Shown here: positions 2,311 to 33,976 of the stretch, piece by piece
How positions within the stretch are numbered: the stretch's first letter is position 1
Layout of the letters: each line of letters begins with the position of its first letter
Virus record (IMG/VR): IMGVR_UViG_3300006117_000030
Coordinates: 1-36,351 of that record
Origin: a virus
Length of the DNA: 36,351 nucleotides
Strand: one strand, 5' to 3'
Program-made: the position numbers and the translations under genes
Notes under the pieces: model-generated
Seen by the model: the letters and a program-made list of their open reading frames with translations, nothing else
The model's database searches: none
What the model was told of the DNA's origin: nothing

Positions 2311-2438
2311 AAATCAAAAAACTAATACTGAAATTGAACCGTGCAGAGTTCGAACACAACTTGGAGAAAGCAAAGAAGTTGTGGTTTAAGATTCTAAAGA
2401 AGTCTCTGAAGCATAAGCATACAGAGTCTGTTAGATGA
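2307..2438 (+). CDS. Small basic ORF upstream of tmRNA (43 aa)
   Basis: The ATG overlaps the stop of the exported-protein gene (ATGA), a typical coupled arrangement, and the frame runs 43 codons to TGA at 2436-2438. The product is strongly basic and probably helical (MKIKKLILKLNRAEF at the start, KAKKLWFKILKKSLKHK near the end). It ends where the acceptor piece of the tmRNA begins. It could be a real small nucleic-acid-binding or membrane-active peptide, or a chance frame in a transcribed leader; lysine-rich composition alone does not decide this. No family recognised. Confidence 0.45.
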   Translation: MKIKKLILKLNRAEFEHNLEKAKKLWFKILKKSLKHKHTESVR

Positions 2439-2725
2439 TTATGGTTGTATGAAGTAAATCAAAAAGTATTCTGGACGGGGGTGCAAATCCCCCCAGCTCC
2501 ACCAAAAGCATACTGTGAGTCGGCTTGCTGATAAACTTTAAGTAGAGATGGTATGCTTTTGATGGGGCTGCATAGTTTCGACAGGGTAACAAGTAGAGGC
2601 ATGGACAACTCGACACAGAGAGTCGTTAAAAGTAAATTAAACTAAACGCAAATGATGAAAAATTTGTATTGGCAGCCTAAACGCTGACTAGGGTTCGGTG
2701 GGTTCCTCGTAACAGAATACCCACC
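2435..2725 (+). ncRNA. ssrA: Circularly permuted (two-piece) tmRNA
   Basis: tmRNA rescues stalled ribosomes by acting as alanyl-tRNA and then as template for a degradation tag. Here the 3' acceptor piece comes first: T arm GGGGG/TGCAAAT/CCCCC (2477-2493), acceptor strand CAGCTCC (2494-2500), discriminator A and encoded CCA (2501-2504). A 59-nt intervening segment follows, then the 5' end GGGGCTG (2564-2570), a D-loop-like TTCGACAGGG, and the tag frame GCA AAT GAT GAA AAA TTT GTA TTG GCA GCC TAA (2648-2680), encoding ANDEKFVLAA. The acceptor strands pair as seven base pairs with the G3-U70 wobble that alanyl-tRNA synthetase needs. The order is that of permuted ssrA genes of Alphaproteobacteria, some cyanobacteria and some Betaproteobacteria. 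The exact 5' edge of the acceptor piece is uncertain by about 15 bases. Confidence 0.93.
2504..2560 (+). repeat. Inverted repeat closing the tmRNA intervening segment
   Basis: AAAAGCATAC at 2504-2513 is the exact reverse complement of GTATGCTTTT at 2551-2560. It lies directly between the CCA end of the acceptor piece and the GGGGCTG end of the coding piece, so in the precursor it would stack on the acceptor stem with a small bulge (GAT, 2561-2563) and hold both pieces together for end processing. The first A is shared with the encoded CCA. This is the hallmark layout of a permuted tmRNA precursor. Confidence 0.85.
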
Positions 2726-2735
2726 ATATTTTTTT
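2697..2735 (+). terminator. Rho-independent terminator at the end of tmRNA
   Basis: GGTGGGT (2697-2703) pairs with ACCCACC (2719-2725) around a 15-base loop, followed by ATATTTTTTT to 2735. It ends the tmRNA transcript; the hairpin may also stay as the last helix of the mature coding piece. The next gene starts 18 bases later with its own ribosome site. Confidence 0.75.
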
Positions 2736-2752: not shown

Positions 2753-3649
2753 ATGGGAACAACAGTAACAATTGGCCAAACGCCAATTAATACAACATAT
2801 GTCGGTGTCACAGGCACAACCGGTGGTGCTGGTACAGGTGCCAAATTTGACGTAACGAAAACTAATGGTGTATATACCACAGTCATTGAGGCCGCAAATC
2901 TTGGTACTGGTTATGCAATTGGTGATACTGTTACTATTGCAGGTACAAATTTAGGTGGAACAATTGCTAATCCTGATGTGGTCGTAGTGACTGGTATCGG
3001 TACAGGCGGTAAGATTTCTACATTTAGTGCTGCAGGTACAGGCCAGATTGGTAATGGTTTGAATTATACTATCATTGACGTTACAGGTGTTACATCTTAT
3101 AACCTAGGCGATAAGAGTGCTAACTTCACCGTAGTAAATGATACAACAAACAAAAACATTCTAGTTACATCTGCATTGATGACTGCTGTTTCTTATAAAT
3201 TAGAAGGAGTGAATCGTGTTGCATATACTGACAAATCCACTGCTTTTGACCTTACTGGTACTGCTGGTGATGTATACGCATTATTGAAGGCCGGTTTTGG
3301 TACAGTTAATACAACATATGAAGGCATCGGTATCAAATTAGAAGATGCAGGTACAACAAGTGCTACTATTGCTCAGGCAATCGTGACATCTGCACCATTC
3401 ATTCTTGCTAATCCTGATATTGCTACATTTGTTAACAACTTATATACTAACGTGATGGGTGTTGCACCAACACCAACACAAGCATCACCATATATTAGTG
3501 CATTGGCCACAGGAGCAACAACACAAGCAGCGTTGTTAAATGCGGCCGCACATCTTACTACTTTCCAACAAACTATCGGTTTGATTGGTGTAGCGCCAGC
3601 AACAACTGGTGTTCTCTCAACTTCTGGTATTGATTATATACCAGCATAA
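2753..3649 (+). CDS. Phage beta-repeat protein with DUF4214-like C-terminal domain
   Basis: A 298-residue protein with a strong ribosome site AAGGAG at 2742-2747. Residues 20-110 are glycine-rich beta repeats (LGTGYAIGDTVTIAG, then VVTGIGTGGKIST) like the GxGY modules in the baseplate proteins of this same phage. Residues 150-220 (VNRVAYTDKSTAFDLTG and following) resemble the region preceding DUF4214 domains, and residues 222-275 (ATFVNNLYTNVMG, then GATTQAALLNAAA) resemble DUF4214 itself, which is found in bacterial secreted and S-layer-type proteins. No signal peptide is visible. It looks like a fusion of a phage structural module with a host surface-protein module, perhaps a virion decoration that mimics or binds the host surface. 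The domain match is from memory of the motif, and the role is inference. Confidence 0.65.
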   Translation: MGTTVTIGQTPINTTYVGVTGTTGGAGTGAKFDVTKTNGVYTTVIEAANLGTGYAIGDTVTIAGTNLGGTIANPDVVVVTGIGTGGKISTFSAAGTGQIGNGLNYTIIDVTGVTSYNLGDKSANFTVVNDTTNKNILVTSALMTAVSYKLEGVNRVAYTDKSTAFDLTGTAGDVYALLKAGFGTVNTTYEGIGIKLEDAGTTSATIAQAIVTSAPFILANPDIATFVNNLYTNVMGVAPTPTQASPYISALATGATTQAALLNAAAHLTTFQQTIGLIGVAPATTGVLSTSGIDYIPA

Positions 3650-28111: not shown

Positions 28112-31100
28112 ATGGCACTCAATTTTGATGTATCACCATATTATGATGATTTTGATCCTACGAAGAATTACTATCGTATTCTTTACAAGCCAGGATATGC
28201 CGTTCAAGCGAGAGAATTAACACAATCTCAAACAATACTACAAGACCAAATCTCCAAGTTTGGATTGGGTGTTTTTCAAGATGGTTCTAAAGTTTCTGGT
28301 GGTAATATTACTGTTGACACCAACATTGTTACATGTAAATTAACATCTGGATCAAATTCTGTTCTTTCCAGTTTTATTGGAATGTATGCGGTAGGTCAAA
28401 CTTCTGGTTTCGTTTCACAAGTTACTGGTGTTGACACATTAAACAATTATATTAAAACTAAAGCATTAAATACCTCTAACGGAAAGGCCTTTGCATCTGG
28501 AGAAACCATAAATTTATACACATCAAAAATTGATGCCTTAAATTCTATCGTACTAGCAGTATCTCCACAGTTCTCAACGACAGCTTTAACAACTAACACA
28601 CTAACAAGAACATCATCTGGAACATATTTGAGCAATAACCTTGCCATCTCCAGTGCAGGTATTAGTGTCGGTGATACCATCAGTATTTCTTCTATCCAAT
28701 TTACTGCTACTGTAGCTGCAATTGTTGATGCATCAAATGTGACATTGAGTGTGTACTTACCACAAGATGTCAGCAATATTTCAACAACAGTAACAAACAA
28801 CATCTCTGTAAATGCATTAGAAGTTAACGTAGACAATGGTGTCTGGTTTACTAATGGTGTGTTTGTTGAAAATTATGCATCTTCAATCGTACCTGATCCA
28901 CTTAACGCTTATCCATCATGTGTTGTTGGTTTTGAAGTTGATGAGATTATTGTAGATTCTTACTCTGACCCATCATTGTTGGATCCAGCAGTTGGTGCAT
29001 CAAACTATCAAGCACCTGGTGCAGACAGATATTCGATACAATTGAATTTGGTGTTCAAACCATATATTAGCGACCAAGTTGTTGCTAATTTGACTACGGC
29101 CAAATTTATTGAATTGGCCAGAATCAATGCTGGTAATGTAGAGAATCTTAGTAACGTTCCTATTTTCTCCGATGTTTCTACTGCAATTGCTACTGCGGTT
29201 TCAGACATATCTGGAGACTTTATTGTCAATCCATACAGTCTATTGATTGGAAGTACATCTAACACTACATCCAATACAGTCATTTCTTCTATCTCCGCAG
29301 GTAAAGCATACATTAGTGGTTATCCTGTTGAACATATTGCACAGACACCATACACATTGCAGAAGGCTAGAAATACAAATGTATTATTGAGCCAAGACAT
29401 TGAAACATATTATGGTGACTACACAAAAGTACAGAACTTGAATGGTTCTATTGCTAATTTCCAAACAGGCACAGTAGTCGAATTGCATAATGTTGCATTT
29501 GGTGCAGCCAATACAAATACAAAAATTGGTACTGCTCGTGTTCGTAACTTCTCTTACGACTCAGGCAATCTAAGCACAACAGAATACAAGACATTCTTGT
29601 TTGATATCAAATTAGCAAACAACACATTTGCTAGTGTGAATTCAATGATTATTCCTGGTGCAGCAAACAGTTATACATCTGTTTCATTCTCAGCCAATAC
29701 AGTTTCACCTGTAACTTTGATTGATAACACATATAATTCATTGGTGTTCCCAATGCCACAGAAGAACATCTCAAATGTTTCATCTGTCAATTATGTTACT
29801 ACAAGGTTGTTTACAGTACCAACATTTTCTGCTGGTGTTGCAACAATTACAACAAACGGAACATTTGAAACATTCGTTGGTGGTTCTGGTGCAATATCAT
29901 CCGCAGCAAGGCAAATCAATTACTTTATCGTAACAACATCCGCATCTGGAAGCTATGCAAATGGTCAGTTCATTCCTATGGACCAGTCCAACGTGTCAAT
30001 TACCATCACAAATTCTCCAGGTACACCGCAAGCTGTGGTGAATATCGGTGGTGGATTTAATGGCTCTGGTCAAATCTATGCAACCATTTCCGTTGTCAAT
30101 GATACTCCAAAAACAAAAACTTTGAATCAAAAATATGTTGTTCAAGTTTCTGCAAACACATATGGTCAACCAATCGACTTAGGTATATCTGACATATACC
30201 AATTTGATGGCATCTATGAGATGTCAAACACATACACTTACGTTGGTGCATATTCAAACACAACAAACTATTCTGCTAATAGTGCTGTTCTAGATCCAAA
30301 TGGTAATGTCTATGTAGCTCTCACAAGCACGACTGGACATTATCCAAATACATTTGTCTCTATTTGGTCTCCATTAACCAACAATGTTGCATACTATACA
30401 ACAGATAATGGCCAAAGAGATACTTACTATGACCACGGTAAAATTACAAACATATCTGGTGCACCAAGAGGTAATGTTGTTGTAGTATTTGATTACTTCA
30501 CACATTCTGGTGGTACAGGATTCTTTGATGTAAATTCTTATCCTGTGGCCTACGCAAACATTCCATCATTTACATCACCACAATATGGTACAACATATCC
30601 ATTGACAGATGTAATTGACTTCAGACCACGTAGAGCAGACGGTGGAACAGGATTGAATTCATTCCAATTGCCTGCACCATTTAACAATGTGTTCTTGAAC
30701 TATGGTTACTATCTAAGTCGTATCGACAAGATTGTTTTGTATCCAAATGGACAGTTCCAAACAATCACTGGTGTTCCAGCATACACAAATCCTGTTGCAC
30801 CATCTGATGTGCCAGGTGCTTTGACTATATTTACAATTTACTATCCTGCATACACATACACAAAACAGTCTATTCAGGTGACACCAACAAATCTCCGTAG
30901 ATATACGATGAGAGATATTGGTGTGCTAGACAAGCGTATTTCTACTATCGAGGCATACACATCATTGTCCGTTTTGGAAAATCGTGTGACTGGTTCTGAT
31001 GTTACAGATTCTACTGGTTCAAATCTATTGTTTAAGAATGGTTATCTGGTAGATGGTTTCACAGGCCAAAGTGTTGCTGACGTTCAGAATGCTGATTATA

Positions 31101-33976
31101 TTGCTTCTATCGATACAATTAACCAATATTGTACAAACTTCTTCTTGTCAAATGTTGCTTCATACTATGTTGATACAACACAAGGTACATTTGTAACATC
31201 ACCAGGCAACAAGACAAATAACCAATTGTCAATCAAAGACAATGTTATTACCTTCTCTTATAACGAAGCATCTTTGGTGTTCCAAAATACTGCTACAGAA
31301 GTCATCAACGTTAATCCTTTCAACGTGATTAACTTTACTGGTACAGTAGCACTAACACCATCAAGTGACGTTTGGTACTCCACAAACTCACAACCAAATA
31401 TCAATATTGTGACTGATGACCAAGCTGCATGGCTTGCGGCAGTTGGTGGTACAGGTAATGGTTCACAATGGAATGATTGGCAACTAAACTGGACAGGCCA
31501 ATCAACTGATACTGTTGTCACTTCTGCTGACCAAACATCGATTACAAGAGATACGACTGCAATCACAAATGCAATCACGACTCAAGGATTAAGTTCTGCT
31601 GTAAAAGGTGGTCCAATCCAAGTAAGTTCTACGACTAAAGTTCTTTCTAGTGCAATTATTCCTTTCGCAAGGTCTATTCCTATACAATTCAAAGTGAATG
31701 GTGTTGCACCATACACACAACTACACACATTCATGGACGGCATTTGTATTGATACATATGTTACTCCTGATGTGGGTTATACTGATTCTGTTAATTACAT
31801 TAACATTGTAAATGCAGGTGCAGGATATACCAACGGAAATAACCAGTCAATCATCCAAGTTGTTGGTGCAAATACAACACCAGCAGTATTTACTGCCAAC
31901 GTATCTGGTGGCCAAATTGTTGCAATCAATTATGTTCAATTAGGCTCAGGATATCGTTCAATTCCAACAATTCAAGTTACTGGTTCTAACACTTCTACTG
32001 CCGTATTGACTGCAAATGGTGCTGGTTATTTGGGTGGCAGATTGATATCTGATGTTAATGGTACTGCAACAGGTACAATACAAATACCTAATGATAACTT
32101 TGCAAAGATACCAACAGGAACAATTATAATTGAGTTTGGTGATAACTTCCTTTCACCAGCTGTAAGTACTGTCTATGCAAAGGCAACATTTACTGCACAA
32201 GGAACATTACAGACAACACAAACAACTGTAATCTCTACAAGACCACCAATTACTACACCAAAACCACAAGTTGTTACGGCAACGGTAACACCAGCTGCAC
32301 CTGTTGCAACACCTGTTACGACTGGTGGTAATTCTTCACCTCCAGTTTACATTGGTGATTCTTCTGTAGCAGTCAGCAGTCAGGCTGCTTACACTATCGC
32401 TGCAACAATTGCAGGTAATTATGGTATCCAAGTTACTGGCCAAAATGCAGCCTTGCAACAAGCAGTTAACAGTATTGATACAACATTACAAACCACTTTA
32501 AATGGTGGTGCATACGGTAATATTCCTGGTCCAGTTGCAGCTGCAGCTGCGGCCGCAATTGCTCAAGACGTTGCTAACGGACAAGATGTAACAACTGCTA
32601 CTAATACAGTAGATATGTTCTTATCAAATAATAAGAACAATTTGGATCAAGCTGCAAAAGATTTTGCGACTGGTGGTTTTGCTGCCATTCAGGCTGGTGT
32701 CAATGCAGGAACATATACTGACCCATTATCACAAAACTTCCTTGTTGATTCTGGAAAGTATCCAAATGGTGTCTTCTTGTCATCATTAGATTTGTTCTTT
32801 GCAACTGCTGATGCAACAATACCTGTGTCTGTTCGTATTAGACCAACAGTCAATGGTTATCCTGATGCAGTCAATGATATTCCAGGTTCTATTGTTTGGT
32901 TGAATCCTTCTGCTATCAATTTACCTGCACCAAGTGCAATCACAAACTCAATTGGACCTGCAACAACATTTACATTTGCTCATCCAGTTTACTTGCAACC
33001 AGGCCAGTATTCAATTATGGTCTCATCTAATTCAAATGCATACACACTGTATGCTTCGAAATTAGGTCAAGTACAATACGGTACAACTAATGTGGTAAAT
33101 GCATTGAATTATGCTGGTTCACTATTCAAATCACAAAACTCTTCTACATGGGTTGCTGCACCAAGTGAAACAATGTGTTTCAACTTGAAGATTTGTGACT
33201 TTGCTGGTGGTACACAAACATTTAATGTAACATCAAATAATTCACCGACTCCTGCCAAGTTTGATTACTTGCAACTAATGACATCTGACTTGTCGTTTAC
33301 ATCGTTAGACTCTATCAATTACAATGTACAAACAAAAGATTATGTGACATCTGCAACATTGTTGTCTAATGTTCTTGAAGGCCAAACACATCAGTTTGCA
33401 ACAAGACAAGTACAAAGTTCTTCTGGTGATATTGTAATTAAACCAACAGTATCTAACGTTGACCGCTGGACATCTCCAGTGATTGACTTAGAACGTTTGA
33501 ATACAATTTTGATACAAAACGTTATTACTCCTTACTATTCTGCTAACACAGTATCAGAATCTTTGGGTGGTTTCAATAACGGTGGTGCATCTGCAAGGTA
33601 CATTACACGCCGTGTCACATTGAATAATAACTTTGTGTCTACTGGCTTGACTGTGTATTTGGATGTCAATCGTCAACCAGGAACATCAATTGAAGTATAC
33701 TATAAAGTATTGAATCAAAATGATCCAAACAACTTTGACCTAAATCCATATGTGAAGATGAGTCCAATTTTGGCACCAGGCGCTGGTCTTGGAGTAACAG
33801 GTGCAACAGACTATACATCAGATACATATCAGGCATTGAACATTCAGTACCATGATTTGACAACTGGTGCATTGTACACCAACTTCAACGTGTTTGCAAT
33901 TAAGGTAGTATTCTACTCAAGCAATCCGGCCATCGCACCAAGAATTAAAAACTTTAGGGCAATCGCAACAGCATGA
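28112..33976 (+). CDS. Giant baseplate-fibre connector, DUF4815-like, gp10 position
   Basis: A 1954-residue protein, the largest in the window. The N-terminus (FDVSPYYDDFDPTKNYYRIL, YKPGYAVQARELTQSQTILQ, DQISKFG) is the signature of the DUF4815 structural family. A GxGY module (YINIVNAGAGYTN, VQLGSGYRSIPTIQV) lies near residues 1225-1310. A Pro/Thr/Val linker (TPAAPVATPVTTGG) follows at about residue 1390, then an Ala-rich helical part, and a C-terminal set of jelly-roll-like domains (FLVDSGKYPNGVFLSSLDLF; FTFAHPVYLQPGQYSIMVSS; VYLDVNRQPGTSIEVYYKV). In aquatic T4-like phages this protein stands where gp10 does and would link wedges to fibres. Ribosome site AAAGGAAAA. Function inferred from place. 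Confidence 0.75.
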   Translation: MALNFDVSPYYDDFDPTKNYYRILYKPGYAVQARELTQSQTILQDQISKFGLGVFQDGSKVSGGNITVDTNIVTCKLTSGSNSVLSSFIGMYAVGQTSGFVSQVTGVDTLNNYIKTKALNTSNGKAFASGETINLYTSKIDALNSIVLAVSPQFSTTALTTNTLTRTSSGTYLSNNLAISSAGISVGDTISISSIQFTATVAAIVDASNVTLSVYLPQDVSNISTTVTNNISVNALEVNVDNGVWFTNGVFVENYASSIVPDPLNAYPSCVVGFEVDEIIVDSYSDPSLLDPAVGASNYQAPGADRYSIQLNLVFKPYISDQVVANLTTAKFIELARINAGNVENLSNVPIFSDVSTAIATAVSDISGDFIVNPYSLLIGSTSNTTSNTVISSISAGKAYISGYPVEHIAQTPYTLQKARNTNVLLSQDIETYYGDYTKVQNLNGSIANFQTGTVVELHNVAFGAANTNTKIGTARVRNFSYDSGNLSTTEYKTFLFDIKLANNTFASVNSMIIPGAANSYTSVSFSANTVSPVTLIDNTYNSLVFPMPQKNISNVSSVNYVTTRLFTVPTFSAGVATITTNGTFETFVGGSGAISSAARQINYFIVTTSASGSYANGQFIPMDQSNVSITITNSPGTPQAVVNIGGGFNGSGQIYATISVVNDTPKTKTLNQKYVVQVSANTYGQPIDLGISDIYQFDGIYEMSNTYTYVGAYSNTTNYSANSAVLDPNGNVYVALTSTTGHYPNTFVSIWSPLTNNVAYYTTDNGQRDTYYDHGKITNISGAPRGNVVVVFDYFTHSGGTGFFDVNSYPVAYANIPSFTSPQYGTTYPLTDVIDFRPRRADGGTGLNSFQLPAPFNNVFLNYGYYLSRIDKIVLYPNGQFQTITGVPAYTNPVAPSDVPGALTIFTIYYPAYTYTKQSIQVTPTNLRRYTMRDIGVLDKRISTIEAYTSLSVLENRVTGSDVTDSTGSNLLFKNGYLVDGFTGQSVADVQNADYIASIDTINQYCTNFFLSNVASYYVDTTQGTFVTSPGNKTNNQLSIKDNVITFSYNEASLVFQNTATEVINVNPFNVINFTGTVALTPSSDVWYSTNSQPNINIVTDDQAAWLAAVGGTGNGSQWNDWQLNWTGQSTDTVVTSADQTSITRDTTAITNAITTQGLSSAVKGGPIQVSSTTKVLSSAIIPFARSIPIQFKVNGVAPYTQLHTFMDGICIDTYVTPDVGYTDSVNYINIVNAGAGYTNGNNQSIIQVVGANTTPAVFTANVSGGQIVAINYVQLGSGYRSIPTIQVTGSNTSTAVLTANGAGYLGGRLISDVNGTATGTIQIPNDNFAKIPTGTIIIEFGDNFLSPAVSTVYAKATFTAQGTLQTTQTTVISTRPPITTPKPQVVTATVTPAAPVATPVTTGGNSSPPVYIGDSSVAVSSQAAYTIAATIAGNYGIQVTGQNAALQQAVNSIDTTLQTTLNGGAYGNIPGPVAAAAAAAIAQDVANGQDVTTATNTVDMFLSNNKNNLDQAAKDFATGGFAAIQAGVNAGTYTDPLSQNFLVDSGKYPNGVFLSSLDLFFATADATIPVSVRIRPTVNGYPDAVNDIPGSIVWLNPSAINLPAPSAITNSIGPATTFTFAHPVYLQPGQYSIMVSSNSNAYTLYASKLGQVQYGTTNVVNALNYAGSLFKSQNSSTWVAAPSETMCFNLKICDFAGGTQTFNVTSNNSPTPAKFDYLQLMTSDLSFTSLDSINYNVQTKDYVTSATLLSNVLEGQTHQFATRQVQSSSGDIVIKPTVSNVDRWTSPVIDLERLNTILIQNVITPYYSANTVSESLGGFNNGGASARYITRRVTLNNNFVSTGLTVYLDVNRQPGTSIEVYYKVLNQNDPNNFDLNPYVKMSPILAPGAGLGVTGATDYTSDTYQALNIQYHDLTTGALYTNFNVFAIKVVFYSSNPAIAPRIKNFRAIATA

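Follow-up and report, generated by a model that had tools for sequence, protein, structure and literature searches.

A two-piece tmRNA gene and its exchangeable spacer hairpin in a T4-like phage lineage

Introduction

Buchholz et al. (2022, PMC9004378) described a two-piece gene (ssrA) for transfer-messenger RNA (tmRNA) in the OM43 phage Melnitz; among 133 unique phage tmRNAs, 53 were predicted by ARAGORN to be two-piece, and the form recurs in 17 of the 47 contigs that cluster with Melnitz. In a 2025 tmRNA database, phages account for 79 unique tmRNA sequences, all forms taken together (PMC11915505). We found a permuted tmRNA in the Stenotrophomonas phage Mendera as well, and a pattern scan of IMG/VR for permuted tmRNA returned at least 120 stretches. 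Here we analysed a window of 36,351 nt (positions 1–36,351 of the 36-kb IMG/VR record IMGVR_UViG_3300006117_000030, from a virus of lake bacteria), in which a circularly permuted phage tmRNA gene had been predicted at 2435–2735 with the remark that no characterised example was known. Melnitz and Mendera are precedents that correct this remark; two-piece phage tmRNA is already known, and the new part is the spacer between the two pieces as a conserved, exchangeable element.

Gene anatomy, covariation, conservation, synteny and the recurrence of spacer modules, all read from sequence, lead us to propose, with a probability of roughly 0.86, that the phage keeps the gene by vertical descent as a functional ssrA of the betaproteobacterial permuted type, whose transcript would be cleaved, charged and used for tagging. 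The two-piece tmRNA thereby emerges as a core gene that persists in a T4-like phage lineage, and not as something captured now and then.

Anatomy of the phage tmRNA gene

An Infernal search with the permuted tmRNA models, which the original prediction had named as a check, matched the locus above cut-off and over the full length of both RF04321 (tmRNA_permuted; 125.2 bits, cut-off 47, E = 2.7e-24, model positions 1–213 of 213) and RF01850 (beta_tmRNA; 121.8 bits, cut-off 84, E = 8e-37, model positions 1–331 of 331). The alpha model RF01849 gave 78.8 bits (cut-off 50) and the cyano model 38.2 bits. ARAGORN called a permuted tmRNA at 2412–2771 with the tag ANDEKFVLAA, which together with the Rfam matches confirms the predicted gene. 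Because just one of 398 Pseudomonadota genomes passed RF01850 (251 bits) and the next best reached 74.3 bits, the 121.8 bits of the window represent a real beta affinity; the permuted beta type was carried by 4 of 150 genomes in the order of the passing genome and by 19 of 151 in one family.

All parts lie on the plus strand in the permuted order that had been described, in that the acceptor 3′ half and the T-arm come first, then an intervening segment, then the 5′ half. Alignment by cmscan to RF04321 and RF01850 located the helix that joins the two pieces, in which the 5′ strand GGTTG (2443–2447) pairs with CAACT at 2606–2610. The T-arm (2477–2493) has the loop TGCAAAT with G at position 55 (2483) in the model alignment, and is followed at 2494–2504 by the acceptor 3′ strand CAGCTCC (2494–2500), the discriminator A and an encoded CCA (2501–2504), the predicted 3′ end of the acceptor piece. 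The intervening segment, or spacer, spans the expected 59 nt (2505–2563); the perfect 10-bp inverted repeat reported for it is real (AAAAGCATAC at 2504–2513 and GTATGCTTTT at 2551–2560) and forms a closing helix, P1, beneath an apical module with the core GAGTCGGCTTGCTGATAAACTTTAAGTAGAGAT at 2517–2549. Downstream lie the acceptor 5′ strand GGGGCTG (2564–2570), which forms the G3.U70 wobble and is preceded by the predicted RNase P cleavage before 2564, and the D-loop-like CATAGTTTCGAC (2571–2582; CATAGT-TTCGAC), in which A18 is 2574 and G19 is 2575. The tag frame with its stop is located where it had been foreseen (2648–2680) and encodes ANDEKFVLAA. A hairpin (GTGGGT...ACCCAC) at the 3′ terminus, with seven T behind it, occupies 2698–2735 and is part of RF01850; the hairpin and T run could end transcription in this phage. 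The hairpin recurs in relatives, and the T run after it is missing in some, such as L045. The locus combines the permuted order and the covariance-model score with G3.U70, CCA and a tag frame that has a resume codon, a stop and a hydrophobic degron.

The gene shares with bacterial ssrA (RF01850/RF04321) the order of parts, the acceptor stem, G3.U70, the joining helix, the tag start ANDE, the 3′ hairpin and P1, but it is about 58% identical to the nearest sampled genes and has the apical spacer module. It resembles the Melnitz gene in its permuted form, in its T4-like aquatic phage setting, in having a proposed early promoter ahead of it and in lacking any sign of host integration; the Melnitz gene, in contrast, groups with alphaproteobacteria, whereas the model affinity of the window is beta, and is associated with a glutamine riboswitch motif, whereas no Rfam riboswitch was found near the gene in the window. 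Mendera and its relatives (Menderavirus) likewise have a permuted tmRNA in a large phage, and in Mendera a hairpin of this style comes after a neighbouring tRNA-Leu, but these phages belong to another clade and differ in the tag (VAANDDSYTVRIAA) and in the spacer family.

In the mechanism that we envisage, one precursor RNA would be made and the hairpin 2505–2563 removed from it, presumably by RNase P at 2564 and by host 3′-end nucleases at 2504, with the closing helix presumably presenting both ends for processing. Cleavage at 2504 and before 2564, which we expect from membership of the family, would leave an acceptor (3′) piece ending at CCA 2504 and an mRNA-like piece starting at 2564, and the two RNAs would stay joined by the acceptor helix and the 2443–2447/2606–2610 helix. 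The host alanyl-tRNA synthetase would recognise G3.U70, host SmpB would bring the tmRNA to stalled ribosomes, the ribosomes would be released, and ANDEKFVLAA would tag the unfinished protein for proteolysis. SmpB was found in none of the 32 viral records searched, including records of 150–580 kb, so host SmpB is the likely partner.

Conservation and covariation among phage relatives

Eighty phage loci were collected through gp32, independently of the tmRNA. In nearly all of those with enough upstream sequence (L070 being the exception) a permuted tmRNA gene lies on the same strand 2.2–4.2 kb upstream of gp32, and 33 of 47 records, often fragmentary, scored over the cut-off. With acceptor arms placed by T-stem scoring, as for all acceptor, elbow and helix counts given here, the T, acceptor and spacer helices were 96% paired in 25 distinct gp32-found relatives. 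Fifteen of 25 pairs were doubly changed, amounting to 100 doubly changed cells versus 29 in shuffles, and the signal was lost when helix partners were slid; within the T stem, 3 of 5 pairs are doubly changed. The alanine identity pair G3.U70 was invariant in 36 of 36 gp32-selected relatives, to which this claim is limited because the search pattern forces G3.U70 in the other loci, while acceptor pairs 4–7 varied; CCA was encoded in 34 of the 36. The 230 phage loci yielded 88 distinct tags, 82 ending in AA and 70 in LAA.

By sequence comparison, the tertiary contact between T-loop position 55 and D-loop position 18 also covaries. Of 170 loci, 91 have U/G at the two positions and 66 have G/A, the remaining 13 being exceptions. 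In a tree inferred without those parts, at least 23 changes fell on each position, and among 17 independent supported pairs the two switched together in about 16 (p = 3e-5). Sampled bacterial beta genes are U/G and alpha-type genes G/A, and the phage clade has both states, among near relatives; the window, with A18/G55, differs here from the G18/U55 of the sampled bacterial beta genes. Divergent permuted tmRNA-like genes in L271, L277 and L278 have GGATCGAC in place of TTTCGAC at the D-loop, together with a spacer module of the family fam2.

A tree of the tmRNA core, built from short sequences of which a few rows were shifted by some bases, placed the window in a clade (support 0.98) whose 77 sequences all come from phages and none from a sampled bacterium, nested in a larger group that also contains bacterial beta genes (support 0.88). 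Core identity to the window was 82–95% for the closest phages and at most 58% for the closest sampled bacteria. A search of genome contigs for a bacterial tmRNA sharing the tag DNA of the window returned none. The exact acceptor plus D-loop pattern matched only in an alphaproteobacterial metagenome-assembled genome and in Chloroflexi, and ARAGORN identified three of the Chloroflexi pattern loci as ordinary one-piece tmRNA genes.

The spacer hairpin and its exchangeable apex

The closing helix begins at CCA, and its consensus over 120 distinct phage spacers reads CCA-NAAGYRYAYT ... ARTRYRCTTYTGAT-GGG. Bacterial beta-type precursors carry a similar closing helix, and P1 is therefore probably an inherited processing hairpin. 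Across 192 distinct phage tmRNAs, the apical parts can be sorted into about 83 families. Seventeen contigs besides that of the window contain its core, beside acceptor arms and T-arms of several types, and phage tmRNAs with bodies only 61–85% alike have this core in identical form. A comparison of the spacer with Rfam ribozymes and riboswitches gave no family at gathering score (in one scan, the 150 of 204 matches listed were tRNA only), and an Rfam ribozyme or riboswitch was rejected as its identity. Three spacer module families had no match in phage isolate records, the module of one family (fam105) was found in none of 398 bacterial genomes in a search run without a positive control, and a literature search retrieved no paper on spacer modules.

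Modules also occur beside tRNA genes. In L265 the core of the window lies outside any tmRNA, between a protein gene and tRNA-Gly, and in the 214-kb record L378 a diverged homologue of it directly follows tRNA-Lys, its altered inner stem still pairing. The fam105 core has 15 copies in tmRNA spacers and 10 elsewhere, the latter mostly directly after a tRNA CCA in a cluster and on the same strand, and fam1 and fam160 have tRNA-side copies too. In several clusters the tRNA-side helix starts with CCA itself (CCATATTGAAGCACATT ... ARTGTGYTTCAATATGG) and bears many different apices. Counts of tRNA-side stems are a weak signal (32 of 327, versus 17 at random places), and the tRNA-side argument therefore rests on the shared cores and the stem sequence. 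The spacer proves to carry a conserved apical module, which phages swap among their tmRNA genes and which occurs behind tRNA CCA ends too; this is a new observation. A precursor part usually taken as waste carries conserved modules common to tmRNA and tRNA genes.

The apices might instead be neutral loops that were spread just by recent recombination and have no function of their own, an explanation that we judge unlikely. Spacers do move between backbones, as 92 pairs of tmRNAs have bodies at least 90% alike and unrelated apices, and such exchange could use the homology of P1 and of the acceptor arms, which the genes have in common. Yet 185 pairs have apices at least 95% alike on bodies at most 75% alike (the sample behind both counts being enriched for five module families), and among 20 distinct fam105 copies the closing helix has diverged with compensation, 11 of 14 pairs being doubly changed, whereas the apical core is nearly invariant, in tmRNA and tRNA settings alike and also outside the search pattern. 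A further reading, in which each module is a small piece of mobile DNA bounded by inverted repeats and not an RNA element, seems to us quite improbable: the modules are discrete units with inverted-repeat ends at several kinds of sites, and extra hairpin units stand in tandem in L174 and L034, but the copies examined lie on the tRNA or tmRNA strand, in most tRNA settings directly after CCA, and their stem variants are compensated.

A conserved apex together with compensated stems in two genomic settings supports the reading that the apex is under its own selection; the excised hairpin would then combine a closing helix from bacterial permuted pre-tmRNA with a separately selected apical module. 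The apex could act as a small RNA once released, as a controller of processing or as a mobile element. We suggest, tentatively and at well below even odds, that the intervening segments of phage permuted tmRNAs constitute a large undescribed class of phage small RNAs, built as hairpin modules on a common closing helix, released at tmRNA or tRNA maturation, passed from phage to phage, and either working in trans (directed, for example, at host defence or at RNA enzymes of the host) or controlling processing. Should the modules indeed prove to be stable RNAs or to control processing, an unrecognised layer of RNA would be encoded in the tRNA and tmRNA regions of phages. The tRNA cluster of phage T4 may be likened to this arrangement, as the stable RNAs C and D are small structured RNAs between its tRNA genes; we know of no tmRNA gene in T4.

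Several loci show further arrangements of such hairpins. At 2190–2890 of L034, two extra, longer spacer hairpins stand in tandem before the intact tmRNA, split by a mini acceptor hairpin (TGATGGGCCTGCAATGCAGGTCCACCA) and followed by a truncated mRNA-like part, which resembles a partial tandem duplication. On the minus strand of L174 (5540–6400), several successive hairpin-bounded elements lie upstream of the tmRNA, one of them a second copy of its own spacer module. Mendera provides a cultured phage with the tRNA-side hairpin arrangement: a 15-pair hairpin (GAAAGCATCTTAG...CTAAGATGCTTTC; L082:3918) lies just after tRNA-Leu and upstream of the permuted tmRNA. A hairpin after tRNA-Arg at L378:6804 holds a T-arm-like GAGGTTCGAGTCCTC, possibly a tRNA-like domain within that hairpin.

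Function of the gene and alternative roles

The phage tmRNA could be a decoy or inhibitor that displaces host tmRNA and does not perform full trans-translation; we consider this very improbable, as the tag frame is complete and its LAA end conserved, features needless for a mere decoy. That the gene is a captured host ssrA, kept as a passenger or a decaying copy without function for the phage, is scarcely credible: acquisition of phage tmRNAs from hosts or prophages has been suggested by Buchholz et al. (PMC9004378), and the partial second copy beside the intact one in L034 shows that copies decay, but the strong compensatory change, the invariant G3.U70, the conserved tags and the conserved synteny across a deep phage clade apart from the sampled bacteria all argue otherwise.

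Some points weigh against a functional phage ssrA of the kind proposed here. The contig is a 36-kb fragment, and smpB may lie elsewhere in the genome of this phage, although longer related records are without it. The genes of L018 and L019 encode no CCA (they read ATTA) and so would need CCA addition. The elbow covariation may owe partly to joint recombination of a T-arm/D-loop block, against which several pairs with differing elbows share the spacer that lies between positions 55 and 18. L018 (at 1333) and L019 (at 427) are near relatives of the window, and their spacers are just 25 nt long.

Genomic surroundings

The assignment to a T4-like phage made in the original prediction is borne out by gp32, a gp59-type loader and baseplate genes, alongside end protector, head closure and tail tube genes. 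A run of small genes precedes the permuted tmRNA gene, and a gene on the same strand (2753–3649) for a DUF4214-domain protein (Pfam PF13946, 24.1 bits, cut-off 23.2) follows it. The label 'envelope genes' that had been given to the neighbours is loose; downstream are the DUF4214 protein, a sub-threshold YfaZ match and a cell-wall hydrolase. A sigma-70-type promoter match on the plus strand at 1970–1998 (TTGACA-17-TATAAT) is a possible early promoter of the operon; the promoter scan returned 3 sites versus 3.1 expected in shuffles, and this site is notable solely through its perfect match to the consensus (12 of 12). After the baseplate genes, at 28112–33976, the window encodes a 1954-residue protein with very high scores to the uncharacterised families phrog_358 and phrog_877.
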